This document shows positions 9,001 to 22,060 of a stretch of DNA of 22,060 bases, in pieces; the first letter of the stretch is position 1, and every line of letters starts with the position of its first letter. The DNA is from a virus. The notes below the pieces were generated by a model, which ran no database searches, was not told the origin of the DNA, and saw only the letters and a program-made list of their open reading frames with translations. The stretch spans positions 1-22,060 of the IMG/VR virus record IMGVR_UViG_3300029787_003226, one strand, 5' to 3'. Made by a program: the position numbers and the translations under genes.

Positions 9001-12000
9001 CGATCAATAGATCGTGAGCATCAACAACCTTGTTGTTAGCAACTTCAAAACCGAAGTCAGCATTCATTCTACCGACTGCTACGTCAGCAATGAACTGTCT
9101 GTTAGCCCATATTAAGTTACGAGCATCAGCATGCTTATTACCTTGACCAGATCCAGCTGCGTCAGGAGTAATAGTGATGTCTCTGATCTGTGTTAATCCA
9201 TGACCACCTTGTACAGTAACCACTTCATTACGCATTATCTGAATGGCAATGTCTCTTGCGTGGTTGAATGTCTCTACAGATTCATTCTCTTCACCTACAA
9301 CATGAGAACCATCAACGTAATACTTAGCACCATCCCATACTTGATCGTTACCACCGTATGCTAGGTTATATCCCATTGCCTCACAGTAGTCAACAATGTC
9401 ATCAATACATGCCTGACTACCAGTAGGAACCTGATAGGATGGGTTAGCAGCAAGCATTCTGTCTACTGCTTCCTGAGCAATAAACTGTTTGTTAGCAAGG
9501 ATTAGTGATGTACCATCAGCAGATCTATCTACAGGAGGTACACTGTTTGGTGTCTGCCATGGAGCAGGTACTGTTATTACAACTGTTCCAGAATCTGTGC
9601 TAGCACCACTTAGTATTACTGTAGCTGTTCTATGATCTGCTACGTCATCAACCAGTACAGAACCATCAGGGGTAGCACCACTGAATGTCATACTGTATGC
9701 GTTCTTAGCAAATACAGCGTGTCCTCTTGGACAGACGATTGTCATTACATCGCCAGAGCATGTATATGTACCTGTTCTTGTAAATGTTGCGGAAGTACCT
9801 GCGTTGTTTGCCTTCTTAACGTGTGCGTATGACTCTAACGCTATGAAGTCAAGGTTGTTATTGATTGTCTCAGCACCATCTCTTTGCTTAGACATCTCCT
9901 TGAAGTCAGCACCAAACTCAACCTTCTCAAATGCGTAAGGAGAGTTCCTCAATGACATCAAAGCATAGTTTGTAGCAGAACAAACCTGTTGGTCTCCAGA
10001 TGGATCAAAGTCTGTAGCAATCTTAGAACATGAACCTCTGATAGCAAACTTAAGTGAGTAACCGTCAGCTCTTTCTATACGATGTGTAACATACTTTCTT
10101 CCATTGAAGTCACCAAGGTTATCTAAAACGTTACAGTTACCAGATCTGGTAGCACTGTCTGACGCTCTGATTACAAAGTATACTTCGTTTGTTGATGAAT
10201 TATATCTAGCAACACCACATCCTAAGTTTGAACTACCACCTAAGATAGTAGCAAAATCACTTTGTGCTTGAGCAAGTGTACCAGTTTTATATGTTGCTAT
10301 ATGGAATGACTTGTCTTGATGTGTACCAGCATCGAATGTGATATGAACACCAACGCCAAGACCATTTGTAGGAGCAAGAGTAACAAGTTGTGGCCACAGA
10401 GCACTTAACTTAGAAGGATCTGTATTAGCAACTGTGACTGTTAATGTTGTAGCTGCCTGTGTAAATGTAGCACTAGCACTACTACCGAAGTCGATAGCAG
10501 TATATGGTAAACCATATATCTGAACTTCTTGTCCTTTCTCATAGTCATGACCAACGAAAGGAATACCTTCTATTGTTCTTGAAGCACCTGTTACTTCAAA
10601 TGCTATACCTAAGTATTGCTGCTGTGTAGCAAGGTCTGTGTTGATTTGACTGATGTCAACAACGTTTAGTGCTTTTTCTAATCTGTGGTAACCTTTACCT
10701 ACACCTGTGATAGAAAGGATAACAGGAGCATCAGCACCAGATATATCAGTATTGGTAGCATCGGCTTGTGTTTGTGCTAATTGGAAATAATTATCATCTA
10801 TTTTGTAAACATAATATAGTCCGTTATTAGTTAATCCACCTATATCTCCAGCTTTAGAAGAACGATAGTAAGCACCGTTACCAGTGAACAAACCATGTTT
10901 GGGGAAGTAGAATGTATTATCTTTTACAGAAATTCTTGAGGTAAAGAGTGTGTGCTCGTCTCCTGTACCAGGATCACCTAGGTCTCTTCTACCAGTTGTT
11001 GTTTGTATGTTGAGTGCGTTAGCAGCAGTGTCATACAGTTCTAATGTATTCTCATCTATTGATCTGACAAAGTATGTTGTGCCAGTTACTAATCCAGATG
11101 GAGCAGTACCACCTTCGTTTTGTACAGCATACTCTACTTTAAAACCAGTGTTCAATCTGTGTAGAGGAACAGTAATCTGATTTGTAGTAGCATCTACGAT
11201 AGTAGCATTACTACCATCGAAACGTAGTGTCTCTGTCTCAGAGTTAATTACCCACTGATACCTTTGGTGTTTAATAACCTCAGTCTCAGGTCTTTGTGAT
11301 TCTCTATCAGCAACGTCGAGTGAGTCAGATGGTGAAGCACCTGTCTTAACGATGTTAGCGTAGACATCAGCATAGTATAATCTTTCAGCGAGCTGGAACG
11401 TTGACTCATCATCACTCATCAGTACCGTAATAGTACCAGATGAATATGGAGATGCTTGAGGACCTGTAAATGTTACAGTTTCAATGATCGCTCTAGAGGA
11501 TGAAGATCCACCTTCTACTGCGTATCCAACAAGTAACGTAGTATTGTCACCTGTGTGGTTTTCAAATGTAATAGCAAAGATGTTTCTACCTTTGTTTTCC
11601 AAACCTGGTGAGAACTCAAATGGTTCTAGGTCTGGTTCATACATTAACCTTTGCTTATCGTCAAACACATAAGCAAACTTCCATGTAAAGTCTGGACTTC
11701 CGTTAGCATCTAAGTGGTCTCTGAATACAACACCCGCACAATACGTCTCGTTAGACGCTTTGATCATGTGTCTGTCCATGTTCAATGGACGTAAGATAAC
11801 TCTTCTTAAGTTATCTCCAATCAACGAACAGTTGAATGGTAGAGATATTGGGTTGTCTTCTACGTAGTCACCACCTGAACATATAATAGAAACGTATTCA
11901 GGAGTCTGTGTGTCTTGCTGTAAACTATAAGCTATCTGAGCAGCTTTCTTAATGGTACGAACTGGTTTAGCAGCTGATCTACCATCGTTAGCATCGTCAC

Positions 12001-12739
12001 CAATACCAGCAACGGATGATACGTAAACACGACCACCATTGTCAGCAGTAGCAACGTCGTATACAAACTTGGTAGTAGCAACTCTGTTATTCTGTGTCTG
12101 TCTTGGTGGGTTATCAGCAGTAGGATAGTATATTGTACCAAAGTCAGCAGCAGTTGGGTCTGTCTCTTCAAAGTTAATTAAATTAGGACCTCTGAGGTCT
12201 AGTCCTTTAGTTACAAACTCGTTAGTAACGTCTAGGTTTCTAATTTGAGCAGTATCTGAGATGATAGATCTTGTAGTTCTTATCTGTCCTTCAACGTCAA
12301 GGTCAAACTCAGGGTTGGTGTTGTTGATACCAACACGAACGTTACCTGTACTACTCTTGGTTACGAATATAGCGTCTTCTTCGTCAGCACCTGAACCGAT
12401 ACTGAACTCCATTTTATCTGAAGCATTGATTACTAATGATCTGACACTTCTGTATGATATAGTTGTGGCAGCAGCAATAAAGTTAGTACCTGTGCCTGTT
12501 ATTGAAAATGTATCTTCGTCTACTACAGTTATTGTATAATTTCCAGCCGCAAAAGTCCTTAACAGGTCATCAGAACCTGGTTTTACATATAATTCATCGT
12601 TGTCGTTTAGCTTGTGTGCTATTGATGTGACAGTAACGATGCCATTAGCTCTACCGTACGTAGCACTCGTCCACGGTCCCTGTGGAACTTTACCAGTACC
12701 TTCTATACGTTGTTGCGAAGAACTCTGCCTAAGTGTCAT
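1..12739 (-). CDS. Giant tail-fibre-like virion protein, at least 4,246 residues, C-terminus outside window
   Basis: ATG at 12739 (MTLRQSSSQQRIEG) follows TGGATTAAAAG, with GGA seven bases before it. The frame has no stop in any line I checked and is still open at base 2. Parts by residue: 131-145 VGINNTNPEFDVEG; about 237-480 beta-helix entry (GRVYVSS, PVRTIKKAAQIA, CSLIGDNLRRVIL); about 520-690 HGL..G..YY repeats; 1075-1356 helical C-I-D-D/GGN repeats; 1406-2246 an array of Cys...HxYPR units; 2247-2483 more helical repeats; about 2560-2700 a second beta-helix segment (SPYIQNASLISFLG, NDGYTQLVSVFVIFGG); about 2910 LPTQAAVKDYITNKLG; 3130-3520 GxGYT repeats; 3700-4246 fibre motifs (KLDGNEGAFYQNA, KIWHSENDG, VWHAGNDGVNSQLDAHYVDG, GRIGIGDSNPG). 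The last region is the kind that precedes fibre tips in cyanophages. Probable role: long adhesive tail fibre. Confidence 0.93.
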   Translation of the reverse strand, partial: MTLRQSSSQQRIEGTGKVPQGPWTSATYGRANGIVTVTSIAHKLNDNDELYVKPGSDDLLRTFAAGNYTITVVDEDTFSITGTGTNFIAAATTISYRSVRSLVINASDKMEFSIGSGADEEDAIFVTKSSTGNVRVGINNTNPEFDLDVEGQIRTTRSIISDTAQIRNLDVTNEFVTKGLDLRGPNLINFEETDPTAADFGTIYYPTADNPPRQTQNNRVATTKFVYDVATADNGGRVYVSSVAGIGDDANDGRSAAKPVRTIKKAAQIAYSLQQDTQTPEYVSIICSGGDYVEDNPISLPFNCSLIGDNLRRVILRPLNMDRHMIKASNETYCAGVVFRDHLDANGSPDFTWKFAYVFDDKQRLMYEPDLEPFEFSPGLENKGRNIFAITFENHTGDNTTLLVGYAVEGGSSSSRAIIETVTFTGPQASPYSSGTITVLMSDDESTFQLAERLYYADVYANIVKTGASPSDSLDVADRESQRPETEVIKHQRYQWVINSETETLRFDGSNATIVDATTNQITVPLHRLNTGFKVEYAVQNEGGTAPSGLVTGTTYFVRSIDENTLELYDTAANALNIQTTTGRRDLGDPGTGDEHTLFTSRISVKDNTFYFPKHGLFTGNGAYYRSSKAGDIGGLTNNGLYYVYKIDDNYFQLAQTQADATNTDISGADAPVILSITGVGKGYHRLEKALNVVDISQINTDLATQQQYLGIAFEVTGASRTIEGIPFVGHDYEKGQEVQIYGLPYTAIDFGSSASATFTQAATTLTVTVANTDPSKLSALWPQLVTLAPTNGLGVGVHITFDAGTHQDKSFHIATYKTGTLAQAQSDFATILGGSSNLGCGVARYNSSTNEVYFVIRASDSATRSGNCNVLDNLGDFNGRKYVTHRIERADGYSLKFAIRGSCSKIATDFDPSGDQQVCSATNYALMSLRNSPYAFEKVEFGADFKEMSKQRDGAETINNNLDFIALESYAHVKKANNAGTSATFTRTGTYTCSGDVMTIVCPRGHAVFAKNAYSMTFSGATPDGSVLVDDVADHRTATVILSGASTDSGTVVITVPAPWQTPNSVPPVDRSADGTSLILANKQFIAQEAVDRMLAANPSYQVPTGSQACIDDIVDYCEAMGYNLAYGGNDQVWDGAKYYVDGSHVVGEENESVETFNHARDIAIQIMRNEVVTVQGGHGLTQIRDITITPDAAGSGQGNKHADARNLIWANRQFIADVAVGRMNADFGFEVANNKVVDAHDLLIANKDFIAKEAYAWELAEDPTLHVPTGNGQDCIDDIADIVDAIAFNVQHGGNNKVWKAAEYYVGTPHLDDEEFQSVRCIEHAREICKLVIANNEVVVRGDHGETQTFDLTITHDSSNSAGRYTDADCTDVRASIDTLFEIIHSAILNDSLNQIKKTTPRTFNVPSPQKRTAQDAVYNPATGLMTVTVNTDVKQVSAASFTPASGLLELNIGSHTLTTSDSIRIKTGSLNFRCDLDGQATDHYYPRTTIDTSTITTGTTYNPVTGAMSVTTTVGHGLTDGDWIRFKENSITWDCAVGTGSHSYPRDTDPVSGKWLQVSNTGGLTFDVNVGISSNTSAHTFVSAVANGLEKKRDRAYEQDLAITAVSGSTITVNVGASSDTSTHVFQNALSDAVILSHGVTVGKYLKIATDSMTWTCDMDDGNTTHTYPRASDPANGDGWSPVVAVGVNTIDINVGPTTVDGYDVRDAAYNPTTGIMTANIGTNNFGVGQYMRLAPDSLGFTCTQDGNVSTKYYPRSALDTDTVESANYQPSTGVMIITASNHGLQNGDQVKFATDSITFTCLEDNNGTNHSYPRATDYANDRWLTVSSVSTNNFSVQVLGIGNIPSTNTTSHTFVSATTNGMSIKKDPLYDTAVEITAISDSTLTATNAVYVPTEGKITITSANHGLREDSMVKFADDSITFTCDHDSNATNHSYPRAERKKFTVTDATYNTATGIVTCTFANHGMLKGEYIKVKDNALSFSCTHGDQSTKTYPRSTDPISGKFIPLTAVSTDTFSFKSLDIVPSTNTTVHTFVSAVTDGIIQKDPDSNEFRHVQVVDADTFNVCIATSSNETTHSFVSATANGITVKDTTISFQTLPVTPSTNTTDHTFVPNTGITPTDAAYNPTTGWMTLTKTSHGLVAGDYVKVDQGGVTFTCAQDSNVTNHAYPRPGDPIFNKSVKIERVTNDTFEINVLQGTDPTNTTAHTFVSALTGCINRVVVKSGGDFPHRFISATANGVEVSGTNDDCKDDVVDILQVVSWNLAMGGNDFTYDAANMYVTGAHLEGEEHHSIYALREAQKVAIEVFQNQDVTTGGHTSLAQVKDLTITQDTGLPICNVVISSITTLMNIVEVAIDTGSLSSVSRTLSYTNRCADVASSITTLTGIITQAIGTTGSPGNLQGITRTYPIADDQCIDDVRHVLRSWMYDLRYGGNKKTLEAASKYILGTNINYVNNEVAQTRAVYQKAKDMAVLAIRNQLPEAKFTSIIPFHNASSTVDINKPECGAAITALTALHTILDNALATPTSLASVTLTEPSTLLKDDSGLKKVPMLGDLLDLPVIEASPYIQNASLISFLGASGAEIDGNKVAEPNVPRPGVYQDANGRERATFPRQGKSMVANAFTIISVGGGIGYNILNDGYTQLVSVFVIFGGDGVVVQSGGYASLTNSASNFGTRALKATGFRSTAYEFDIGTVTNVINQTDNNGAQTGRQIIEVGGTTLTNFPIEDYIIKFDGYTNTDPAKEYFILGVEKLSGSIGTQVTANVTTNDGLGLDLNETATGNQIAFSQGNLDTLVGKTIRFHRPSVCNSSSHTWEYCGAGDTYLALPQNGGVGIPANEAVEEAFGQVYTSGTNEFGDFKVGDFVTIFNRTGSISFVGTVSISELSSIKIVGGSITITGFSDSDELGGAFASDSLLPTQAAVKDYITNKLGPYLNQPFSTNAVPSALVQLTTSGKINIEQIPALRPFNITSVASTAERLGIEDASAGDIAIETTSTSFTFAPAAVDTVNNYITIVGHGLATGDILTYFQGTANIGNLADGAQYYVIVHSVGANTTDYIKLATSLSDAQAGTARNLASQGSGTHTLRTEGAAISYILENDLDSMFIAFTPDATLAFTNSELVTGSASGAQGIITNYDQGVVRDILVDETGAGYTGPPGITISAPGGSGTQATATCTVVNGQVSTVSITNKGSGYFSQPTVTFTAAPTGGTTATAQGNVARIEARLQVDLANNIKFSNVDFMQDETNSTVATGTYVHDTYDITVTETNHGFSQGDIVFLQFTSGSSPSGFYDTTPVNANEYKVTAAISLLTSGNYERKKIVDVIRTVNTSANDAANWTQLSSTNIDASNIVAGTIDPERLADTGTANSFTFLRGDSSYQNVIQSIKFSTSDCMVGESSLSDTSYIEKVDITVAGSGYTVGTYQNIPMLGGNVSIANAGVARATYTVADVTTGGIIASTSNLNQTPESYTASTTFDVNASTTTGAGLGAQIRFVTDGNGTLSVDLILDGGSGYLGGDTLTFDGPLFGGTVQQPVDITVSTLTSSQAFGVVTSVSVVTPGTGYNGDFLLTVPNELGTPSQAATLNARKGVQPRYFGNSSIDIRKANKLTPTTLQAGGSVFGNYGITKFRKNRAEQALGDQTEGGFIVTDNGEVSIDQGAGSKLNADKLDGNEGAFYQNASNLVEGVIDPQRLANTTYNISISGTADFANVLFAETTAPSSANANLVSAANVGAQLALRSNNVNGIPTDAGGDRNGTLTFRRSATGNSVAQLAFSATDNIYLRGNSDLGTVYGNWAKIWHSENDGPPDVNEPRRGTLPGPNADFLDNQQGLWYQQGYNIHDQRTVGVLGDGALPTLLGRDKFVANNFYVVSSGEKYQLYIPNFFAATGANPAGNISAGGTYIIYADDAAINNIGTITIDPGGIVETDDTTVDAKYTVVTGSITFVGAYGNKDIRVFGPNPGSKWTVTSSNLLTTGASQVFALSNTETGALFEMGRAGIVGTPQFDVRSGGLSNDYDVRFEFSGGNSTNGNGLMDIASSSVTINSNTVWHAGNDGVNSQLDAHYVDGYTQNSANVANTLVRRTGSNDINISDLYADQGVFGNTGTTILQLADGNGIFLGKATTNVLSLKGKQNGNVGYMRFGNDSNSFGYNGTYLSYNNVYFRNGRIGIGDSNPGVSLQSTQDAIFGTSGRSANTYVRALAGDSYQAGFEAFGSNQGTGYLFVGQSISYGGGIAYNGDNSPASFGSESGDDI
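4650..5062 (-). other. Second beta-helix segment of the giant protein
   Basis: This covers residues about 2560-2700: SPYIQNASLISFLGASGAEI, then PRPGVYQDANGRERATFPRQ, GKSMVANAFTIISVGGGIGY, NDGYTQLVSVFVIFGGDGVV and GGYASLTNSASNFGTRALKA. In the phage proteins I remember, this motif string follows directly after the entry segment of the beta-helix, but here about 2,000 residues separate them. Confidence 0.65.
5290..5997 (-). repeat. Helical C(I/K)DD/GGN repeats, copies 3 and 4
   Basis: Copy 3 (about 5997-5740) reads CKDDVVDILQVVSWNLAMGG, YDAANMYV, HLEGEEHHSI and ends GGHTSLAQVKDLTIT. Copy 4 (about 5500-5290) reads CIDDVRHVLRSWMYDLRYGG and AASKYILG, without the EE..S helix. Both lack the ANKxFIA first half seen in copies 1 and 2. 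They lie on the other side of the HxYPR array. Confidence 0.75.
6000..8520 (-). repeat. Array of at least eight Cys...HxYPR beta repeats
   Basis: The units read Y.P.TG.MT.T...HGL..GD.(V/I)(K/R), then (F/W)xC, 6-10 residues, and (H/K)xYPR. YPR copies lie near 8270, 8094, 7725, 7463, 7283, 6915, 6745 and 6224. Interleaved are about eight HTFVSA.(A/T)NG segments (near 7990, 7855, 7160, 6635, 6505, 6395, 6105 and 6040). Copies differ in sequence and order, so this is old duplication with loss. The array covers about residues 1406-2246 of the giant protein. Confidence 0.85.
8670..9515 (-). repeat. Helical CIDD/GGN repeats, copies 1 and 2, plus a half copy
   Basis: Two full units lie at 9515-9180 and 9015-8670, with a half unit at about 9120-9030. 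The unit reads ANKxFIAxEA, then VPTG...CIDDI, N(L/V)xxGGN, VW..A.YYV, H...EE..SV and a HAR helix, ending with a beta stretch GGHGLTQIRDITIT or its equivalent. The composition predicts alpha helices inside an otherwise beta-rich fibre. A diverged FIALESYAHVKKA at about 9845-9805 may be a remnant of another first half. Confidence 0.8.
11300..12033 (-). other. First beta-helix segment of the giant protein
   Basis: This covers residues about 237-480. It shows GRVYVSSVAGIGDDANDGRS, then PVRTIKKAAQIAYSL, GGDYVEDNPISLPFNCSLIG and RRVILRPLNMDRHMIKASN, the rungs seen at the start of beta-helix domains in marine phage fibres. It runs into longer strands (NIFAITFENHTGDNTTLLVG) before AERLYYADVYANIVKTG. 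The usual continuation (SPYIQN...) is not here but near residue 2560. Confidence 0.65.
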
Positions 12740-12752
12740 CTTTTAATCCAGT

Positions 12753-13292
12753 TTAATCTGTTGATACTCTTGTGATATCTATGATACCAATCCACTTCAC
12801 AGTCGATGTTGTTGAAACAGCCTCAACATCAAAACTAAAATAAGCACCGCCTCCTATTTGGAAAGCGACGGGGGTGATAGTCCAAGTCTCTACGCCAGGT
12901 AGATGTTCATGTATTACATTCTCAAATTGTGCTTGGAGGGTGGGTACACCGTTTGTGTCCACTGTGATCACAGCGTCAAACTGTGATGCCATAACATATA
13001 TGTTATTATTTACCTCTTGTCCAAATACCTTTGCCTTCACAAATGCCACACTATTGTGACCTAGGGGAGGTGTATTGGATGAAGTGTTTGTGCTTCCATC
13101 AAAACTTAAACGAAGCAAGTTGTTAGCTGGGTCTGTCGTTCTCTTACTAATGAAGATGTCATTTGATGCATCGGTAAAATCATCAGCAACCATGTGAATT
13201 GCTGAGATGTTCTTCAGTTCAAGACTAGGATTTAAAACCTCAGTCGAACCTACTCCGAACCCGCCTATTGATGAGAAATTTTTTGTTGCCAT
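12753..13292 (-). CDS. 179-residue phage structural protein of unknown fold
   Basis: It runs from ATG at 13292 to TAA at 12755-12753, with GAAGGT upstream and a late promoter in the 23-base gap before it. The protein starts MATKNFSSIGGFGVGSTEVL, then alternates short strands (LLRLSFDGS, NNIYVMASQFDAVITVDTNG, GGAYFSFDVEAVS) and ends KWIGIIDITRVSTD. There is no cysteine, signal peptide or membrane segment. The pattern suggests one compact beta-sandwich. I recall similar small proteins with an FGVGS start between large structural genes of T4-like cyanophages, but know no function. The giant gene follows after 13 bases, so the two are probably co-transcribed. It could be a fibre-tip or adaptor subunit; this is a guess from position. 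Confidence 0.92.
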   Translation of the reverse strand: MATKNFSSIGGFGVGSTEVLNPSLELKNISAIHMVADDFTDASNDIFISKRTTDPANNLLRLSFDGSTNTSSNTPPLGHNSVAFVKAKVFGQEVNNNIYVMASQFDAVITVDTNGVPTLQAQFENVIHEHLPGVETWTITPVAFQIGGGAYFSFDVEAVSTTSTVKWIGIIDITRVSTD

Positions 13293-13312: not shown

Positions 13313-13320
13313 TATTTATA
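13313..13320 (-). promoter_or_regulatory. T4-type late promoter TATAAATA
   Basis: The minus strand reads TATAAATA from 13320 to 13313, an exact match to the T4 late-promoter consensus recognised by gp55-like sigma with gp33 and the clamp. It overlaps the TAA stop of the upstream fibre gene and lies 20 bases before the ATG of the 179-residue gene. The T4 spacing places +1 near 13307, giving a leader of about 15 bases. It would drive the 179-residue gene and probably the giant gene after it. Confidence 0.75.
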
Positions 13321-16300
13321 CCTTAACTTTAGTTGTAGTGTACCTTCCTGTGAAAGTAGTTGAACTAGAAGCTTGAGATGACTTCGCTAATGTAATTTGT
13401 ACAGAGTCACCGTTAAGGTTTACTGACGCATCCATCAAATCATTATCAGATGTAATGGAGTTTGTAATGGTAGCATGTGCCACTGTGCCTGATGCTCCAC
13501 ATATAGATGTGACTTCAAACATATGAACTTTACCATCATTACTTTCAAGAGTAATAAGTGTCTTAGCACCCTTGTATGATGTCTTATCAAACTGTGCGAT
13601 GTTCACAGTAGTTGTGAATGAAGGTATAGATCCTCCTTCCACTCTTGCTGAATCTAACTCTACAAATGTAGCAGTAGAATCTAGAACTGTTAGGTAGCTT
13701 GTTGCTCCACCAGCATTGTAAGTCCTATTGACTTTAAGACTTGCTTCTGCTCCAGTAGAATCCAATGACAAGAATTGCTTGTCACTGTTCATATTGAAAC
13801 GAAGTTCATTCTGTAAAGCACTGATCTTACCGTGAGCAACGTCAGCATTACTCAACGTCTCTACAGTAAATGTTACGTCAGTACCAGCACCACCACCAAG
13901 AAGACCACCACCAATGGTGATAACTTCATTGATCTCAAAGTTAATACCACCAGAGTTAATGGTGATAGATGAGATAGTACCATTCGCATCAGTTACGATG
14001 TCAAATGTAGCACCAGATCCTGCGAACTCTGATACACCAGCAACTCCAGTGAATGTAGATGATAAGTCATATGCTGCTGCGGTAGCATTGAATGTGCCAG
14101 GATTAGCACCTAATGTACCGTCAGTAAAGGTAGCAATAGTACCTGCTACTAACTGGTTCTTCATAAAGAATCCACCAGTTATCTCAGCGTCTTTACTTCC
14201 TCTTACCTTGAATAGTGATGTTCCTTTTCTTTGTACGTCTAATGTATCTTGTCCTACAGTACCATTAATAGAAAGAGTACCGTTGACATCCATCAACTTA
14301 GCAGTTCTTATTGTAAACTTGTCTTTATCGAGTGATAGGTTATTGATACCTTCAGCATAAAACTCGAATGTATCTTCGTCAGAGCCAGGTGTTGTTTCAG
14401 TTAATATGTAAGTATCTTGGTCAACGTCACGTACACCACCAAGTGATACGTAGTCGATACCATTGTATCCTTCAAACTGTGATGTTGAAGTATTATATCT
14501 GATACCACCAAGGTAGGTGTCATCAGCAGGAGGTCTATTGTTTGTGTCACCAACTGGAACTATAAGAGTACCAGTAGTATCCATCTTGATATTTCTAGCA
14601 GGACCAGGTTTGAAACTTAAACCAGAACCAGCTACGTCAGTGATGATAACTGTTTGAGCAGCATCAGTTCCTATGATAGCGGAGTCAAGGACTACTGTGT
14701 CACCACTTACATAATCCTTACCAGATGCGTTAATAACAACCGATGTAATAGAACTACTTGTGACTGTGACATCAACGGTAGCACCTGTTCCTTTTCCAGT
14801 TCCTGTGGATGTGACAGCAACAGCAGTGAATGTACCATCAGTAAATGTAGTACCACTTCCAGATGTATCTAATGTTAATATTTCTCCGAATGATTTTACA
14901 ACACCCTGTGCTACGTTAGATATCTCAGTATCTGTAATTCTTGATCTGCCATTTGCTTGAATATAACCGAGTGACTCTACATTACCTTTGTCCATCTCTA
15001 CCTTTAAGGCAGTAGCTGAACCATTCATTATCTTGAAGTCTCTATCAACAGCACCTGTAAATGTTACTCCACCAGCTCCTTTCGGTGTTAGTGTTAGATC
15101 TACGTCAGCGTTAGTACCAATCGCTTGGATAGATGCGTCATTGTTAATCTGTAGACCTACCTGAGCAGTACCAGTGATGATAGTTGCGTTGGCAGTATCA
15201 ACTTTGAATACAGGACTAGCAGTTGTTGAGTCAACACCAACTTGGAAGTCATTACCTATATTGAATGATGTACCATATACTGCTCTCTCTACACCAGCTA
15301 TTGCTATACCAAACTCATCAGGATTTTTATGGAAGAAACCTGTGGTCTGAGAAGTTACAAAGTTTAGACTTGGGGCAGCAGCTGTACCGTCAGCAAGATT
15401 TGCTGTTACGTTTGTGAGTGCTACGTTACCTACAGTCTGTGTTATATCTCCAACTAGAGTTAAATTACCTGTCTGTGCTGTGTCACCTGTTACTGTTTGG
15501 TTAGCAGTTGTTGTTATTGTGTCAACAGCAGCATCGTCACCAAAGGACATGTTGCCTTTAACAACTAAGTCACCGTCAGCAGTGATGTTACCAGATGTTG
15601 TTATATGTCCGAACTCACCTTCTACTTGGAAGACTGTTGCTTGCTTACCAACACTAATTGTACCTTCATAGAGAGTTGGGTCTTTAGTACCAGCTAACTT
15701 GAAAGCATCAGATATTAACGCACCGTCATGTGTAAACTCAAATCTATCAGCACTTGTGACCGCACCTACTGTTAGAGCAAATGGGTTACCTGTTGTAGCA
15801 GGTCCTGACTCATTACCGTTTACTCTTGGTAGTAATGTTTGTCCTACGTTATATCCAAATCCACCTTCATTGACAGTTACGTCTCTAATAAAACCAACCT
15901 TAGTAACAGTGTATTGGAATCCTGAACCACTACCACCAATATCTGCAGCATCAGCACTTAATACATCACCTACAGTGTAAGGTCCTCCAGTCAAACTTAT
16001 ATTTTCTACAGTACTAACAACAAGATTATTACCACTTAAAGTAAATATAAAGTTTGATCCAGCACCACCTAATTCCTGAGCAGTTGCTGATACTTGATCA
16101 CCAACAAAATAGTTTTCACCTTGTGCGTTACTCTTAACTACAGTTACTACACCACCAGCTACAGTAACATCTAAGGATAATCCTGTACCATAATCTCCAG
16201 TTGAACCAGAATTAATTGTGATACTAGCACCCATGTTAGCATGAGTAGAACAAATATAATCTGCTGTTTCACCTGCTACACCAGGTCTTAGTACAACATC

Positions 16301-19300
16301 AGTAAATGCTCCAGCTGTACCTGCTGTGCCTACTGGTATGGCAACGATGTCATTATTTAAAGTCTCACCATCTTCTCTACCAATGAGTAGTGGATGACCA
16401 CTGTTAGAAGTATCACTCTGATCGAAACGATAGGTGTTACCCTCGACCATAGTGATAGCTGCTTGTGTACTGCCATCTATAACGTATACATTATCAGGAG
16501 GAGGTGTACCAGGATTTGATATTACTGTAACTGCGAATGTTTGTGTTGGTACGTTATATGCGTTAACCCCATCATATTGTCCATCTGTATATCCACTACC
16601 TGCGTTTGATATATTTCCTTCCCAACCTGGTATGACGAAATCAGCAGTAGCAACGTTAGTTGGTGCTGTGCCACCACTTACAAAACTAAAGTTTACACCT
16701 GTGTATGTGCCTGGTGTATAAGCACTACCATTATTTGTTATGTTACCAGTCAGTGACTGGATATTTACTGATGTCTCAGCGTCTCCACCAGCTCCACCAA
16801 TCAGTGTTAGTGTAGGAGCAGTGGAGTATCCAACACCTGGACCTGTGATCTCTATTCCAGATAGTCTAGCGTTTCTCTTACTGAAAGATGGTGTTAGAAC
16901 CGCATCAGTAATAGGATCACCACCTGTGATTAGGATTGTAGGATTAAAGTTATAACCTGAACCTATGTTTGTGATATTAACAGCACCGATTGGGTAACCG
17001 ATAGTTGCTGTAGCAGCACCGCCAGATCCTGTTGTGTCAGTAGTGTCATTTGTGACTGATACAGTAGGAGCAGATGTATATCCACTACCTCTGGATCCGA
17101 TAGCGACACTCGCTATAGATCTACCACAATATACTGTGAAAGCAGCAGCTGTTGCTCCAACATCTTCTGAGAATGAAATTGTAGGTAGAGAACTGCCATC
17201 ATATAATGTACCTGGTTCAGTAACGGTGATACCTGTGATTGAACCGCCTGATTCTGTAACAGTAGCAGCTGCGTTAACACCCTTGAATGAATGTGACTCA
17301 CCTGATTCTGAATCAGCTGATGTAGTTAGAGATATAGCAGAACCACCATTGGAAGAAGAAACACCGAAAGTATTTCCTGACTTATTAACGATATAGTAGG
17401 TATTACCTTGTGTTAGACCAATAGCTTCACTACCACCGTTGTTGTCATAAACAACTCTCAATCCATTTATAAATGGGTTATCTGTTATAGTAATTGTAGT
17501 TCCTGATATATCATCAAATGTTCCGAATGATACTGTTTGAGGTTCTTCAATCGTGATAGTTGGAGCTCCAGTATATCCAGATCCACCATCAGCTAAATCA
17601 ATTCTGTTGATTACACCATACTGTTCTAGGACTGCTGTAGCGTCTGGGTTAGTAGTACCCGCAGTAAATCCAATAGTAGGAGGTGAAGTGTAAAGTGATC
17701 CAACGTTGGTTACAGTAACAGTCTTCAGTGAACCATCAGTAGTGTCTATAGTACAGTTTGCCTGACCATTTACAGCAGGGTTGGTGTCTAAAGTTAATGT
17801 CTGTGAACCACCAGTATATCCATCACCTGTTTGAGCAACAGTGATTGTTGATAACTTTTCAGTAGATATGAGAAGGTTCGTATCTGATAATAATCCATAA
17901 GCGTTAAATCCACCTCTTCTTTGTTGTTGTCCTAAGAAAATGTCAATAGAACCAGTCTGAGCAGTGTTAAAACTACCTACCTTATTAGCATCAAAGTATG
18001 CGTTCTCGTTAAATATTACCTCACCGTTAAATGTAATGTCTTCGTTACCAGCTGGGTCAATTAGTAGAGCACCACTTGTTGTAGAGAAAGTGTTACCCGC
18101 TAGTCGTATGTTACCTGTCTCAATATAAGCAGGGAAAATGTTTGTAGTACCAGTGGAGTCAGATAATCCAATACTGGTTGCTTGCTGTGATGATGATGTT
18201 GACTGGAAGTTAACGTTACCTGTCTCTTGGTCAACTAAGAATACTTCACCAACTCTGAAGTCACCTTTCTGGTCAGTAGATGAGTAGAATACTCTACCAC
18301 CATTTGTCTCAACAACTTCATTAGCTTGGTTTGCTAGTGATGTATCATTTGTAAAGTCCTTTCCAGAACCAATGTACATGAAGTTGTGTGCTGATAGAAT
18401 CAGTTTACAACCATTACCATCAGAGACAGCACCCTTAAGACCATAGATGTTAGCAGATGCTATAGACTTAAGTTCACAACCAAAGGCACTGTAGTCTACA
18501 AGTGATACACCTGTAGCTGAGTCACCACCTGATGAACGAACATCCTTTGGAGATGGACTGTCAGAGAATGTACTTGCTTGGTCTGTACCGTTAAAGTGTA
18601 CTAAGAGAACTGTATTAACGTCTATTCCATACTCTGAAGATGGAGCAGTGAAATTACCTGTAAATCTTGCTGTACCATGACTGACTCTAATTTCGTCGAT
18701 ATAACCTGTAAAGAAGTCAGAACCAACTGATCCGTAGTTAGCACCGATGTTTAATGGTTTGGTGCTTCCATAATTATTACTATCTGAATATGTGCCTACT
18801 GAAGTACCATCCACAAACAGTCTTGTAGTACCGTTGTAACGTGCTACAGCGACGTGATGCCATGTGTTGATACTAAGTGTACCTCCACTGATATGTTCTG
18901 TTGTGCCAGAACCAAACTTAACAGTGCCACCATTGTGCCATAACTTTGGTGCTGTATCTGTATTAGATCCAGTACGGAAGTCAAAGATAACATTGTCACC
19001 TGTAAGTGATGAAGCATATACAAATGCTTCTAGAGCAAAGTTTGCTGTACCAAAACCAAAGTCTTCTGAAGTTTCAATACCAATAAAGTCACCAGTACCA
19101 TCAAGTTCTAGTGATGCTGTACCAAATTTCTTAATTGAAGTGTCAAGTCTAGCGTCAGCATTAGGAGTCAGAGTCTTACCTGTCTCTAGTGCTGTAGTAA
19201 ATTGTCCTTCACCTTTTCCTGTTAGGTATATGTAATTACCATCATTTGATGCGATGTTACCATAACCTACCGCTTTCTTATATGTGACATTACCAGATGT

Positions 19301-20446
19301 ATTACCTGCTGTGAGAGCAAAGGTAAATGTATCAACTGTCGGTGCTCCTGTTACCTGATAATAACCATCAGTAGCACTGCCAGAAATAAAGTCACAGTAT
19401 ACGCGGTCATTCGTAGATAAACCATGAGCAGCCCTCGTTACTGTTACAACGTTACTGGATAAAGCGTATGTACCAGATCTAAATTGATTCTCTAGTTCAT
19501 ATACTTGCTCGGAAGCATCAAAGCTACCAGATACACCTGATAGTTTTAATCTTACCTGTCCAGATCCATGTTTTCCTGTGGCACCCTGTATACCTTTGAT
19601 ACCTTCGTTAGCGAAGTATATAAAGGAGTTCTGCCACTCACAACGAACACCATTAGTTAATAGTATACCAATAGAGTTTGGTACGATGAATGTACATTCG
19701 TTGAATAATATAGATGTCTCTAGTGTATTTGCGTTAGCAATAGCTCCATCTAGTTTAGCACCACGACCCGCATCACCTGCGTCATATCCATATGGGTCAC
19801 TAGCAGATGTTGTTGATCCTTTGTTTAATACTGTTACTCTTTGTATATAAGCACTTCTTTCTGAATTCCAATCGTTAGCACCAACGAAGGCATAACCTGT
19901 ATCGTTGCCACTGTTATAGAACATGTCCTTAACAGTCAGTTCTGATACGGTGGTGTCACCGTTCATGATGAAACAGTCAAGGTCGTTTGTTGCTGTTGTG
20001 GGGTATATATTTGTTGCTCTTAAACCTGCTCCTCTAACTGCCACTCCGTCTGGAACTGTTAGTGGAAATTCTTCTTGGTATTCACCAGCTGCTACGTTAA
20101 CTGTATCTCCAGATGTAGCAGCAGCTAAGGCATACTTAAGTGTTAGGAATGGAGTTGAGGAATGTCTACCTCTAGCACCGCCTCCTAATAGAGAAGCAGC
20201 GTTAGTACCAGTTTTAGCTACGAATAGATGATTACTAGGACCATTAGTAATATCAGACGCTAGCATAGACGCAGTAACACTAGCAGTGTTTGGTGCTGCG
20301 TTACCTATCTCTACGATAGAACCTGAATTGTTAACAAAGAGTTTCTTATCCGCAATATTAATTGCGACTTCCTTATCGACTAGATCGGTATTAGTCGGTG
20401 TCGCGTTCGGGGTTGTCGAGCTCTTTAGTTTGATCCTCGTTGCCAT
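13316..20446 (-). CDS. Giant tail-fibre-like protein with beta-helix, LamG and cupredoxin-like domains
   Basis: This frame has 2,376 residues, from ATG at 20446 to TAA at 13318-13316. Order of parts: residues 1-50, an MATRIKLKSST...EVAINIADKKLFV head common in marine phage fibres; about 72-300, a right-handed beta-helix (NHLFVAKTG, PFLTLKYALAAA, VPDGVAVRGAG); about 424-625, a LamG/concanavalin-like jelly roll (TASLELDGTGDFI, WHHVAVARYNGTTRLFVDG, GYIDEIRVSHG); about 870-1300, GxGYT..PT repeats; about 1312-1412, a cupredoxin-like domain with His1351, Cys1399, His1402 and Met1405; about 1419-1535, 1859-1940 and 2106-2200, VGD/GSG repeats; about 1977-1996, GGIRYNTSTSQFEGYNG. The C-terminus ends TTTKVKV, and I recognise no autocleaving chaperone in it. 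The weak AGAG before the start and the 56-base overlap suggest translational coupling to the small upstream gene. Likely a host-contacting fibre or adhesin; no catalytic site is evident. Confidence 0.95.
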   Translation of the reverse strand: MATRIKLKSSTTPNATPTNTDLVDKEVAINIADKKLFVNNSGSIVEIGNAAPNTASVTASMLASDITNGPSNHLFVAKTGTNAASLLGGGARGRHSSTPFLTLKYALAAATSGDTVNVAAGEYQEEFPLTVPDGVAVRGAGLRATNIYPTTATNDLDCFIMNGDTTVSELTVKDMFYNSGNDTGYAFVGANDWNSERSAYIQRVTVLNKGSTTSASDPYGYDAGDAGRGAKLDGAIANANTLETSILFNECTFIVPNSIGILLTNGVRCEWQNSFIYFANEGIKGIQGATGKHGSGQVRLKLSGVSGSFDASEQVYELENQFRSGTYALSSNVVTVTRAAHGLSTNDRVYCDFISGSATDGYYQVTGAPTVDTFTFALTAGNTSGNVTYKKAVGYGNIASNDGNYIYLTGKGEGQFTTALETGKTLTPNADARLDTSIKKFGTASLELDGTGDFIGIETSEDFGFGTANFALEAFVYASSLTGDNVIFDFRTGSNTDTAPKLWHNGGTVKFGSGTTEHISGGTLSINTWHHVAVARYNGTTRLFVDGTSVGTYSDSNNYGSTKPLNIGANYGSVGSDFFTGYIDEIRVSHGTARFTGNFTAPSSEYGIDVNTVLLVHFNGTDQASTFSDSPSPKDVRSSGGDSATGVSLVDYSAFGCELKSIASANIYGLKGAVSDGNGCKLILSAHNFMYIGSGKDFTNDTSLANQANEVVETNGGRVFYSSTDQKGDFRVGEVFLVDQETGNVNFQSTSSSQQATSIGLSDSTGTTNIFPAYIETGNIRLAGNTFSTTSGALLIDPAGNEDITFNGEVIFNENAYFDANKVGSFNTAQTGSIDIFLGQQQRRGGFNAYGLLSDTNLLISTEKLSTITVAQTGDGYTGGSQTLTLDTNPAVNGQANCTIDTTDGSLKTVTVTNVGSLYTSPPTIGFTAGTTNPDATAVLEQYGVINRIDLADGGSGYTGAPTITIEEPQTVSFGTFDDISGTTITITDNPFINGLRVVYDNNGGSEAIGLTQGNTYYIVNKSGNTFGVSSSNGGSAISLTTSADSESGESHSFKGVNAAATVTESGGSITGITVTEPGTLYDGSSLPTISFSEDVGATAAAFTVYCGRSIASVAIGSRGSGYTSAPTVSVTNDTTDTTGSGGAATATIGYPIGAVNITNIGSGYNFNPTILITGGDPITDAVLTPSFSKRNARLSGIEITGPGVGYSTAPTLTLIGGAGGDAETSVNIQSLTGNITNNGSAYTPGTYTGVNFSFVSGGTAPTNVATADFVIPGWEGNISNAGSGYTDGQYDGVNAYNVPTQTFAVTVISNPGTPPPDNVYVIDGSTQAAITMVEGNTYRFDQSDTSNSGHPLLIGREDGETLNNDIVAIPVGTAGTAGAFTDVVLRPGVAGETADYICSTHANMGASITINSGSTGDYGTGLSLDVTVAGGVVTVVKSNAQGENYFVGDQVSATAQELGGAGSNFIFTLSGNNLVVSTVENISLTGGPYTVGDVLSADAADIGGSGSGFQYTVTKVGFIRDVTVNEGGFGYNVGQTLLPRVNGNESGPATTGNPFALTVGAVTSADRFEFTHDGALISDAFKLAGTKDPTLYEGTISVGKQATVFQVEGEFGHITTSGNITADGDLVVKGNMSFGDDAAVDTITTTANQTVTGDTAQTGNLTLVGDITQTVGNVALTNVTANLADGTAAAPSLNFVTSQTTGFFHKNPDEFGIAIAGVERAVYGTSFNIGNDFQVGVDSTTASPVFKVDTANATIITGTAQVGLQINNDASIQAIGTNADVDLTLTPKGAGGVTFTGAVDRDFKIMNGSATALKVEMDKGNVESLGYIQANGRSRITDTEISNVAQGVVKSFGEILTLDTSGSGTTFTDGTFTAVAVTSTGTGKGTGATVDVTVTSSSITSVVINASGKDYVSGDTVVLDSAIIGTDAAQTVIITDVAGSGLSFKPGPARNIKMDTTGTLIVPVGDTNNRPPADDTYLGGIRYNTSTSQFEGYNGIDYVSLGGVRDVDQDTYILTETTPGSDEDTFEFYAEGINNLSLDKDKFTIRTAKLMDVNGTLSINGTVGQDTLDVQRKGTSLFKVRGSKDAEITGGFFMKNQLVAGTIATFTDGTLGANPGTFNATAAAYDLSSTFTGVAGVSEFAGSGATFDIVTDANGTISSITINSGGINFEINEVITIGGGLLGGGAGTDVTFTVETLSNADVAHGKISALQNELRFNMNSDKQFLSLDSTGAEASLKVNRTYNAGGATSYLTVLDSTATFVELDSARVEGGSIPSFTTTVNIAQFDKTSYKGAKTLITLESNDGKVHMFEVTSICGASGTVAHATITNSITSDNDLMDASVNLNGDSVQITLAKSSQASSSTTFTGRYTTTKVKV
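16210..16512 (-). other. Cupredoxin-like domain with intact type-1 copper ligand set
   Basis: This covers residues about 1312-1412 of the 2,376-residue protein. It starts DNVYVIDGSTQAAITMVEGN and continues YRFDQSDTSNSGHPLLIG, then closes with DYICSTHANMGASITI. The ligand pattern is His1351 (codon 16396-16394), Cys1399 (16252-16250), His1402 (16243-16241) and Met1405 (16234-16232). C-x2-H-x2-M is the spacing I recall for the ligand loop of amicyanin, and the His-to-Cys distance of 48 is close to that of plastocyanin. Related HPL...C..H..MG domains occur, as I remember, in other marine phage proteins. Copper binding is an inference. Confidence 0.7.
16530..17860 (-). repeat. Array of GxGYTxxPT beta repeats
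   Basis: In protein space this stretch holds about nine related units in the 2,376-residue protein, among them GDGYTGGS, GSLYTSPPTIGF, GSGYTGAPTITI, GSGYTSAPTVSV, GSGYNFNPTILI, GVGYSTAPTLTL, GSAYTPGTY and GSGYTDGQY. Spacing varies. One span between units carries an HSFKGVN segment. The repeats look like short beta hairpins forming a fibre shaft. Similar units recur in the giant protein at about 2170-3360. Confidence 0.8.
18572..19177 (-). other. LamG / concanavalin-like jelly-roll domain in the 2,376-residue protein
   Basis: This covers residues about 424-625. The signatures are those of the Laminin_G_3 type: KKFGTASLELDGTGDFI, then FALEAFVYASS, a WHHVAVARYNGTTRLFVDG strand pair, and GYIDEIRVSHGTARFTGNF near the end. 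The family often binds sugars or glycoproteins, so a glycan-binding function on the host surface is a reasonable inference. The ligand cannot be read from the sequence. Confidence 0.85.
19547..20233 (-). other. Beta-helix (pectate-lyase-like fold) domain in the 2,376-residue protein
   Basis: This covers residues about 72-300. The sequence opens with NHLFVAKTG, then PFLTLKYALAAATSGDTV and VAAGEYQEEFPLTVPDGVAV, the DUF1565-like entry of many right-handed beta-helices. Later rungs (TTVSELTVKDMFY, NGVRCEWQNSFIYF) alternate short strands and turns. The fold is usual in phage adhesins. I see no lyase or hydrolase residue set, so I call it a binding scaffold only. The C-terminal limit is approximate. 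Confidence 0.75.
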
Positions 20447-20621
20447 TTATAGCATTCTCTGATGATTGATCTTGGTTAATAGTATTTAACTGGTTTTGTA
20501 AGTCCAGTGTTTTCGCTTCAAGCATGATGTTAGCGAGTGTCAGTTCAGAAACTTTACGTTGTAATGTAGCAATGATAATGTTGATGTCCATAATAATATC
20601 AGTGTTAGAAGACACCTCCAT
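20391..20621 (-). CDS. Small coiled-coil protein between fibre genes
   Basis: This is a 76-residue frame from ATG at 20621, overlapping the upstream gene by 17 bases and the downstream gene by 56. The second ATG at 20591 (residue 11, MDINIII) would give 66 residues and start just after the upstream stop. It resembles the start I remember for small cyanophage proteins of this kind, but neither start has a clear Shine-Dalgarno sequence. Residues 13-45 show heptad-like spacing of I/L/V (IIIATLQRKVSELTLANIML), predicting a coiled coil. The C-terminal third is acidic, rich in N, Q, D and E, and probably disordered. It is the only frame filling the 158-base gap between its large neighbours, which supports it being real. 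A helper of fibre trimerisation or attachment is possible but unproven. Confidence 0.8.
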   Translation of the reverse strand: MEVSSNTDIIMDINIIIATLQRKVSELTLANIMLEAKTLDLQNQLNTINQDQSSENAINGNEDQTKELDNPERDTD

Positions 20622-22060
20622 CTAGGGTGTCTGTCCAAACAGGAACGCCTAATGATGTTACTGTCAAGACTTGGAAAGAAGTTGTTGCGTCACTTCCTGT
20701 GCCAGGTGATGCTATGTTAGCAGCAGCAGTTACCTGCATCGCAGAAGAACCATTACCGTAAGGAACACCATATTGAGTAAAGGTTGAAACACCTGTACCA
20801 CCATATTGGACTTCGAGATCAGTATCAAGTTCAAGATCTCCTAAAACAACAGTACCACGATTACCTGTTACTCCGAACACGGTAGCAGTGTCTGTAGCAT
20901 TTTCAATGAATGTCCAAGCACCTGCTCCATCAGCACCGCCTGTACGATCATATCCAAAGAAACCAAACTGAGCAGCACTACCTGTATGGTAGTGTACCTT
21001 CACACCTCTATCTAGGCCATCACTAGCATCCCTAGTTGCAGTAAGAGCTCCACCTGAATCAATATTTCCAGTGATTGCTTGGTCTAAAGTAATCTGCTTT
21101 AGTCCAGTATTGATAGAAGCAATAGATGTTGAGTTTGCTATGTTTGTTCCAGTAATATCATCACCAACGTTTAGTCCTGTTACTCTGTCCACAGTTAGAA
21201 CTGTAGCACCTGAAGTAGCGGATGCTGTTAATGATAGAGCAGTTGTAGGATCACCTAATTCAATAGTAGGATCGTTAACGCTCATTGAAGCACTGTTAAC
21301 AGTTGTTGTAGTACCATCAATCTGTAGGTCACCTTTGATGATAACCAAACCTTCTGAATCATTACCAGCTGGGAATGGGTCAATGATCATCTCTGTACCA
21401 GAAGTAGTTTCGATTCTATTAGCATCGAACTTTAACTGGTCAATAGTCAACTCTCCAGTTATGTTCTGAGTAGCGTTGATTGTTTGTGTGCCTTGGAACT
21501 CAACTCCAGCAGCAAATGTAACTGTTGAGTTAACAGTCATGGTATCTGTGTTAGCAGTACCAATCGTTACGTCATCATCTACAACTAAGTCTTTGATCCA
21601 TGCTTTAGCACCAACTGCTAAACCACCTGATACCATTACAGCAGCAGTGGTTGAGTTAGATGCTGTAGTAGTGTCAGCAAATGTTACTTGAACACCTGTG
21701 TCATACTGCTGATCAGCACCAGCCCATCTTAGTTTGTCTAGAGTTGTTTCATCATAATATACACGTGCGTCATTTCCTGTACCGAACTTTAGGGGGATAT
21801 CGTCCTGTATAAGAACTGAAGCAGCTGCGTTACCACCTGATACTCTTCTGACTTGTAAGTCACCATCAGAGTCGTCCCAGACTAACTCAAGGTCACCAGT
21901 GGTTCCGAATTCTACTTCTTGTCCATCTTGGAATACAACCTTACCAGCTCCGTTAGCACCTATGATTAGGTCTGCGTCTGTTGTGCTTGTGTCAATTACG
22001 TTCGAGTTGATCTGAACGTCATCAACCAAGAGTTGATCTATTTTACTATTACTATCTACA
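20605..22060 (-). CDS. Phage virion structural / tail-fibre-like protein, start outside window
   Basis: The frame is open to the window edge and gives 484 residues up to TAA at 20607-20605. A TTG at 22029 could be mistaken for the start, but the ten codons upstream stay open and run into the conserved-looking LLVDDVQINSNVI, so the true start is upstream of this window. Visible parts, counted from the edge: beta-rich strands with the GAGKV, DLELVWDDSDGDL and TTAAVMVSGGLAVG motifs typical of cyanophage structural proteins; a DPTIELGDPT...DRGVKVHYHTG...FGFFGYDRTGG module (about residues 265-375) with a VGDDITGTNI segment inside it; and a C-terminus with YGGTGVSTFTQYGVPYGNG and WTDTLDGGVF. The last module recurs at the ends of such proteins as I remember them. 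No enzyme motif is visible. The end overlaps the next gene by 17 bases. Probable role: part of a tail fibre or another late virion component. Confidence 0.9.
   Translation of the reverse strand, partial: VDSNSKIDQLLVDDVQINSNVIDTSTTDADLIIGANGAGKVVFQDGQEVEFGTTGDLELVWDDSDGDLQVRRVSGGNAAASVLIQDDIPLKFGTGNDARVYYDETTLDKLRWAGADQQYDTGVQVTFADTTTASNSTTAAVMVSGGLAVGAKAWIKDLVVDDDVTIGTANTDTMTVNSTVTFAAGVEFQGTQTINATQNITGELTIDQLKFDANRIETTSGTEMIIDPFPAGNDSEGLVIIKGDLQIDGTTTTVNSASMSVNDPTIELGDPTTALSLTASATSGATVLTVDRVTGLNVGDDITGTNIANSTSIASINTGLKQITLDQAITGNIDSGGALTATRDASDGLDRGVKVHYHTGSAAQFGFFGYDRTGGADGAGAWTFIENATDTATVFGVTGNRGTVVLGDLELDTDLEVQYGGTGVSTFTQYGVPYGNGSSAMQVTAAANIASPGTGSDATTSFQVLTVTSLGVPVWTDTLDGGVF

Follow-up and report, generated by a model that had tools for sequence, protein, structure and literature searches.

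The locus described here raises the question of whether a structural protein of a virus particle can carry an intact blue copper site and, if so, what the metal would be for. It lies in the virus record IMGVR_UViG_3300029787_003226 of IMG/VR, of which the whole stretch of 22,060 bases is referred to as the window, and the analysis was computational. The minus strand of the window encodes a virion structural protein of 2376 amino acids (aa), in which one domain resembles the cupredoxins. The predicted fold and the sequence comparisons support placing residues 1301–1412 in a cupredoxin family that has not been described before, with the His-Cys-His-Met site intact. We estimate a probability of about 0.6 for the whole reading, i.e., that the domain is a member of the cupredoxins, binds copper, and acts as an extracellular display module at the tail or baseplate end of the particle.

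The domain, its predicted ligands and its relation to blue copper proteins

16211–16546, minus strand: cupredoxin-fold domain, residues about 1301–1412, first beta strand included (AlphaFold2, PDB fold matches)
16394–16396, minus strand: His1351, predicted first copper ligand, aligned to the plastocyanin ligand His39
16391–16393, minus strand: Pro1352, second-sphere residue
16232–16252, minus strand: ligand loop C-S-T-H-A-N-M, with Cys1399 (16250–16252), His1402 (16241–16243) and Met1405 (16232–16234)

The motif of the domain, SGHPL...YICSTHANMG, contains the spacing C-x2-H-x2-M, which is that of the amicyanin loop ligands Cys92, His95 and Met98 (PMC12723479). A preliminary description of this DNA had named the four ligands and pointed to an amicyanin-like loop; a position check on the translation found its residue numbers (His1351, Cys1399, His1402, Met1405) to be exact, and the loop spacing was borne out by the comparison with PMC12723479. 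The stretch that it had assigned to the domain, 16210–16512, does cover the motif, but its boundary has to be revised, as it corresponds to residues 1312–1413 and leaves out the N-terminal beta strand TFAVTVI (residues 1303–1309).

An AlphaFold2 model of residues 1298–1414, built with 87 homologues, reached a predicted local distance difference test score (pLDDT) of 96.3 and a predicted template modelling score (pTM) of 0.89. Its strands comprise model positions E5-13, 22-26, 34-37, 41-45, (H54), 56-59, 70-75, 84-89, 97-102 and 110-115. C102, H105 and M108 of the model are located at or after the strand 97-102, and the Cys closes the second-last strand, which is the cupredoxin order. The arrangement of the four ligands around one site is judged from the strand order of the model only. 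The top 11 PDB fold matches of this model are all type-1 copper proteins (rusticyanin and three-domain nitrite reductase), with E from 3.1e-4, a probability of 1.00, TM-scores of 0.47–0.56 and identities of 14–20%. The small Greek-key sandwich proposed in the preliminary description agrees with these cupredoxin matches and with a strand order in which the last two strands flank the ligand loop. A model starting at residue 1311, based on 69 sequences, had a pLDDT of 78 and gave weak immunoglobulin (Ig)-like matches; the Ig-like fold was dropped after the full-domain model had been obtained. The two models differ in both the first strand and the alignment depth, so that the gain is not attributable to either alone.

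At the sequence level, the window domain lies below the cut-off of PF00127 (Copper-bind) and has no Pfam family match, and when this domain was searched as a single sequence against Pfam, NCBIfam and the PDB, only chance matches (Spherulin4, PotD) came up. The family is without a Pfam or NCBIfam entry. A profile of the family aligned to plastocyanins at E 0.12, by itself not significant, with His placed on His, Cys-His-Met in register, and a two-residue loop difference at the expected place. PF00127 was matched by 12 of 88 family members. Among the relatives, the domain of the cellular protein L202 passes the curated PF00127 cut-off (24.6 bits versus 21.2, positions 16–97 of 99) and was also recovered by a purely viral profile at 6e-20, so that the family is linked to the blue copper proteins significantly, through this intermediate. 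Compared profile to profile with 12 PF00127 proteins, the family scored 31.0 and 37.2, against a maximum of 16.1 in 200 column shuffles and 7.8 for the reversed profile. Single family members also gave weak matches to Cu-oxidase families, and a few matched PF25489 (At5g54830-like), all under its cut-off; the latter assignment was rejected. Taken together, the predicted fold, the plastocyanin profile alignment and the PF00127-passing relative uphold the earlier proposal of a cupredoxin-like domain with four type-1 ligands.

Conservation of the ligand site in viruses and cells

Conservation was evaluated in 152 full-length copies from all loci, non-redundant at 80%. Some of the collections were gathered by a pattern outside the ligand region (YxF[DR]..SD) or with a ligand-free member as query, so that the resulting count was not produced by selecting on the ligands, even though each scan contributed its 80 best copies as ranked by similarity. 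The His, Cys and His were all kept in 138 of the 152 copies and all absent in 10, with three copies retaining the first His only, one the Cys only, and none two of the three. The column conservation of the four ligands (0.97, 0.93, 0.91 and 0.91) is among the highest in the 152 copies, and the four-ligand pattern is far beyond chance. Within the ligand-complete copies, His is found at position C+3 in 138/138 and Met at C+6 in 137/138, the one other copy having Gln, which is the axial ligand of stellacyanin. The spacing between the loop His and Met in the isolates is x2 in most, x3 in P-HM1, P-HM2 and MED4-213, and x4 in Sf-CH1b, with the Met kept; natural cupredoxin loops span the same range (x2 in amicyanin, x4 in plastocyanin). 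This pattern, and the retention of Met across loop lengths, fit one working four-ligand metal site.

The preliminary description had proposed to look for a free loss of Cys1399 or His1402 among the homologues; the losses are few and take the whole site. Mapped on a tree computed with the ligand columns excluded, ligand loss needs up to seven changes, at least three of them on well supported branches. In an independent-pairs test of ligand co-loss, the supported pairs were too few to reach significance, with none in the opposite direction.

The same counts bear on the explanation that the domain is a plain adhesion or structural beta-sandwich, i.e., a decoration domain in which the four residues are held by packing or history and no metal is bound. 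The 10 ligand-free copies are still recognizable, a second copy without the ligands is seen in the same proteins of Syn1, ACG-2014h and S-RIM32, and the placement within viral proteins is free (middle third 109, C-terminal 80, N-terminal 75), all of which favors such a sandwich. Neutral residues would, on the other hand, predict that partial sets are common, which does not agree with 138 complete sets and no copy with two of three, and cellular lipoproteins that are unrelated retain the site as well. We consider this explanation fairly unlikely.

Ligand-free copies were seen in two settings. The structural proteins L065, L069 and L420 contain second, ligand-free copies later in the same chain, several of them interrupted by an inserted module. 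Viral proteins of about 370 aa (L027, L028, L039 and relatives) have an N-terminal copy without the His/Cys/His set, in which Met-Gly is kept; in L027 and L028 a ligand-complete copy is present on a separate nearby open reading frame (ORF).

The domain was detected in 48 phage records, from cyanophages, pelagiphages and methylophages, and in at least 565 IMG/VR stretches. Predicted viral protein structures (BFVD) gave 62 matches at E <= 0.001, mostly from marine phages and some from giant-virus beta-sandwich proteins. The giant-virus proteins A0A481Z7Q7, A0A481Z6J5 and A0A481YVH3 (Pithovirus, Marseillevirus) are matched by fold only, with E of 1e-6 to 1e-5. A cupredoxin in a cyanophage, a phage tail or a tail fibre was not found reported in the literature searched.

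Besides viruses, a scan of species genomes located the domain in SAR86, Woeseiaceae, SAR92, OM182, Bacteroidetes and Marine Group II archaea. A lipobox-like signal starts 30 of the 67 ORFs on cell contigs, 49 of the 65 copies in complete ORFs sit in the last 15% of the protein, and some cellular copies come after collagen-like or cadherin-like stalks. The Marine Group II/Poseidoniales contigs L173–L185 encode archaeal lipoproteins that end in the domain, the copies of L174 and L182 following collagen-like GxY stalks. Three SAR86 contigs (L190, L201, L219) encode, in a chromosomal setting, lipoproteins of 161–177 aa that consist of a lipobox and a single domain and may possibly be lipid-anchored blue copper proteins. 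Two of these three contigs have conserved neighbours, which in L219 are an SDR gene and a protein of ~976 aa without a Pfam match. The neighbours of the cellular lipoprotein genes (fatty-acid, PUA, nitroreductase and SDR genes) indicate a chromosomal setting, and no copper or redox operon was seen among them. Some other contigs labelled as cellular are clearly viral (L203, Pelagibacter fibre-like proteins).

The carrier protein, its gene neighbourhood and the host

The minus strand of the window is a run of consecutive structural genes:

13316–20446, minus strand: 2376-aa virion structural protein carrying the cupredoxin domain (ORF; PHROG baseplate wedge subunit, E=0)
18680–19072, minus strand: Laminin-G/concanavalin-like domain of that protein, residues 459–589 (PF13385, E=1.7e-17)
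12753–13292, minus strand: 179-aa virion structural protein of the T4-GC 512 family (PHROG 5449; 53% to the P-HM1 counterpart, gene order kept)
20391–20621, minus strand: 76-aa ORF that overlaps the start of the 2376-aa gene as PHM1_094 does in P-HM1 (synteny only)
20605–22059, minus strand: C-terminal part of a structural protein, cut by the window end (PHROG 15769; 63% to the P-HM1 counterpart)
2–12739, minus strand: giant structural protein, at least 4246 aa and truncated at the 3' end by the window edge (54% over 1256 residues to P-HM1 PHM1_097 'YapH')

This gene order is that of PHM1_093 to PHM1_097 in the Prochlorococcus phage P-HM1. Over residues 1–1307, the 2376-aa protein is 50% identical to PHM1_095, annotated as 'gp7 baseplate wedge initiator'. 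P-HM1 has a second, longer gp7 gene, and the gp7 label of the 2376-aa protein may therefore rest on shared (repeat) modules. The nearest isolate equivalents, in Syn1, S-H9-1, S-RIM32 and ACG-2014h, occupy the corresponding place, with large baseplate-region genes on one side and the T4-GC 512 gene on the other; their annotations read virion structural, structural or hypothetical protein. The safest name is 'virion structural protein'. The preliminary description had spoken of a phage fibre protein with the domain next to a lectin-like fold. A virion structural protein it is, but 'fibre' is loose, since PHROG and the relatives point to a baseplate wedge or virion structural protein; a Laminin-G-type domain is present as well, but not adjacent in sequence, as it lies about 710 residues upstream in the chain.

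Many diverged repeats of the GSGYT/GxGYxxxP type occupy residues about 870–1300, upstream of the cupredoxin domain (window 16550–17900, minus strand), and the same repeat module occurs in the neighbouring giant protein. The equivalent gene of MED4-213 (L415 1266-1806) is annotated as two coding sequences, with a frame break just upstream of the cupredoxin domain.

The closest isolates over the whole 2376-aa protein infect Prochlorococcus MED4, and a protein of 82% identity is located on a phage contig of 189,106 bases within a Prochlorococcus single-cell genome (Prochlorococcus sp. AG-418-C09) that encodes plastocyanin. The virus of the window therefore probably infects Prochlorococcus, in line with the earlier expectation of a host with cupredoxin carriers. 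The 189-kb contig carries a plastocyanin-like gene of its own, with a signal-like start (L428, G102:C3:110600-111500).

These findings are relevant to the idea that the virion bears a functional electron carrier or redox site, which would exchange electrons with, for instance, the host envelope or the photosynthetic chain. It would account for the complete type-1 ligand set and suit the plastocyanin of the relatives' host and the plastocyanin gene on the relative's contig. Against it, the virion has no apparent partner, the second-sphere Asn or Ser is missing, and the phage plastocyanin, a known cyanophage metabolic gene (PMC3037559), is a separate gene; on the 189-kb contig it and the virion cupredoxin domain belong to different families. 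We regard electron transfer as very improbable, and the display reading does not need it.

Proposed role and comparison with known copper and metal sites

The site quite likely binds copper. We propose that the domain would hold metal as a display module at the tail or baseplate end of the particle and may aid contact with, or recognition of, the host surface. The same module is found near the C-terminus of surface-exposed lipoproteins of marine bacteria and archaea, which suggests an extracellular binding role common to virus and cell. With phages and surface lipoproteins sharing the domain, and no redox partner in sight, a display or binding module appears the most likely function. Free copper is nearly lacking in the place where phage proteins fold, and copper would hence be acquired outside the cell, most likely after lysis.

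Several observations weigh against this proposal. The best PDB TM-score is just 0.56, with a root-mean-square deviation of 4–6 Å. When the ligand columns were masked, the profile-profile score fell to 17.4, barely over the shuffle maximum, which means that much of the sequence signal is the ligand site itself. The near absence of free copper from the cytoplasm, where phages assemble, also counts against copper. Ligand-free copies exist in other phage proteins, so the cupredoxin fold is usable without metal. Finally, Pro follows the first His in 127 of the 138 ligand-complete copies, unlike the Asn of amicyanin and the Ser of rusticyanin among the classical carriers, where the residue at this position tunes the site (PMC12723479).

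The Pro, being unlike the electron carriers, would also suit a structural metal site that is not specific for copper: Zn, Fe or Cu would lock the loop there and make the virion stable in seawater. Metals in tail proteins have precedents, as Fe is bound at the HxH sites of T4 gp37 and HxH motifs occur in marine phages (PMC11705849), and lambda gpL carries a 4Fe-4S domain (PMC11101478). A His-Cys-His-Met set with C-x2-H-x2-4-M is, however, specific to type-1 copper among known folds of such kind, and the aligned and fold-matched proteins are copper proteins, which renders a non-specific metal site improbable.

In an extension of the display reading, the cupredoxin modules of marine phage particles would have been borrowed from, or be shared with, the surface lipoproteins of marine bacteria and archaea, and the copper on them would be used in host contact, as a copper counterpart of the iron 'Trojan Horse'; this is distinctly speculative and we think it unlikely. 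Independently of this extension, a cupredoxin family whose type-1 ligand set is intact is widespread both among structural proteins of phages that abound in the ocean and among surface lipoproteins of abundant marine microbes. If copper is bound, virions would form a colloid that carries copper in seawater, and contact between phage and host may be metal-dependent. This structural cupredoxin is set apart from the well-known phage plastocyanin gene, and one relative's contig has both.

Compared with the PF00127 family (plastocyanin, azurin, amicyanin), the window domain has in common the Greek-key fold, the four ligands in register and the amicyanin-type C-x2-H-x2-M, but it is a module of a very large virion protein and not a small soluble carrier. 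Amicyanin itself is a small soluble partner of methylamine dehydrogenase with Asn after the first His, whereas the window domain sits inside a 2376-aa structural protein and has Pro1352 at that position. Rusticyanin and the cupredoxin domain of three-domain nitrite reductase are the best structural matches (probability 1.00); rusticyanin has Ser in place of the Pro, and its ligand loop is longer. The His-Pro of the window domain is like that of the multicopper oxidases (NHPIHLHGH), in which the His is a type-1 ligand; in contrast to these enzymes, the window family is without the trinuclear-cluster histidines and forms a single isolated domain. In loop length and in the Pro after His, the site thus joins an amicyanin-length loop to an oxidase-like His-Pro. 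The HxH iron of T4 gp37, the 4Fe-4S domain of lambda gpL and the 'Trojan Horse' iron hypothesis likewise concern metal features in phage tail-region proteins, from which the cupredoxin domain differs in fold, in ligands and probably in metal.

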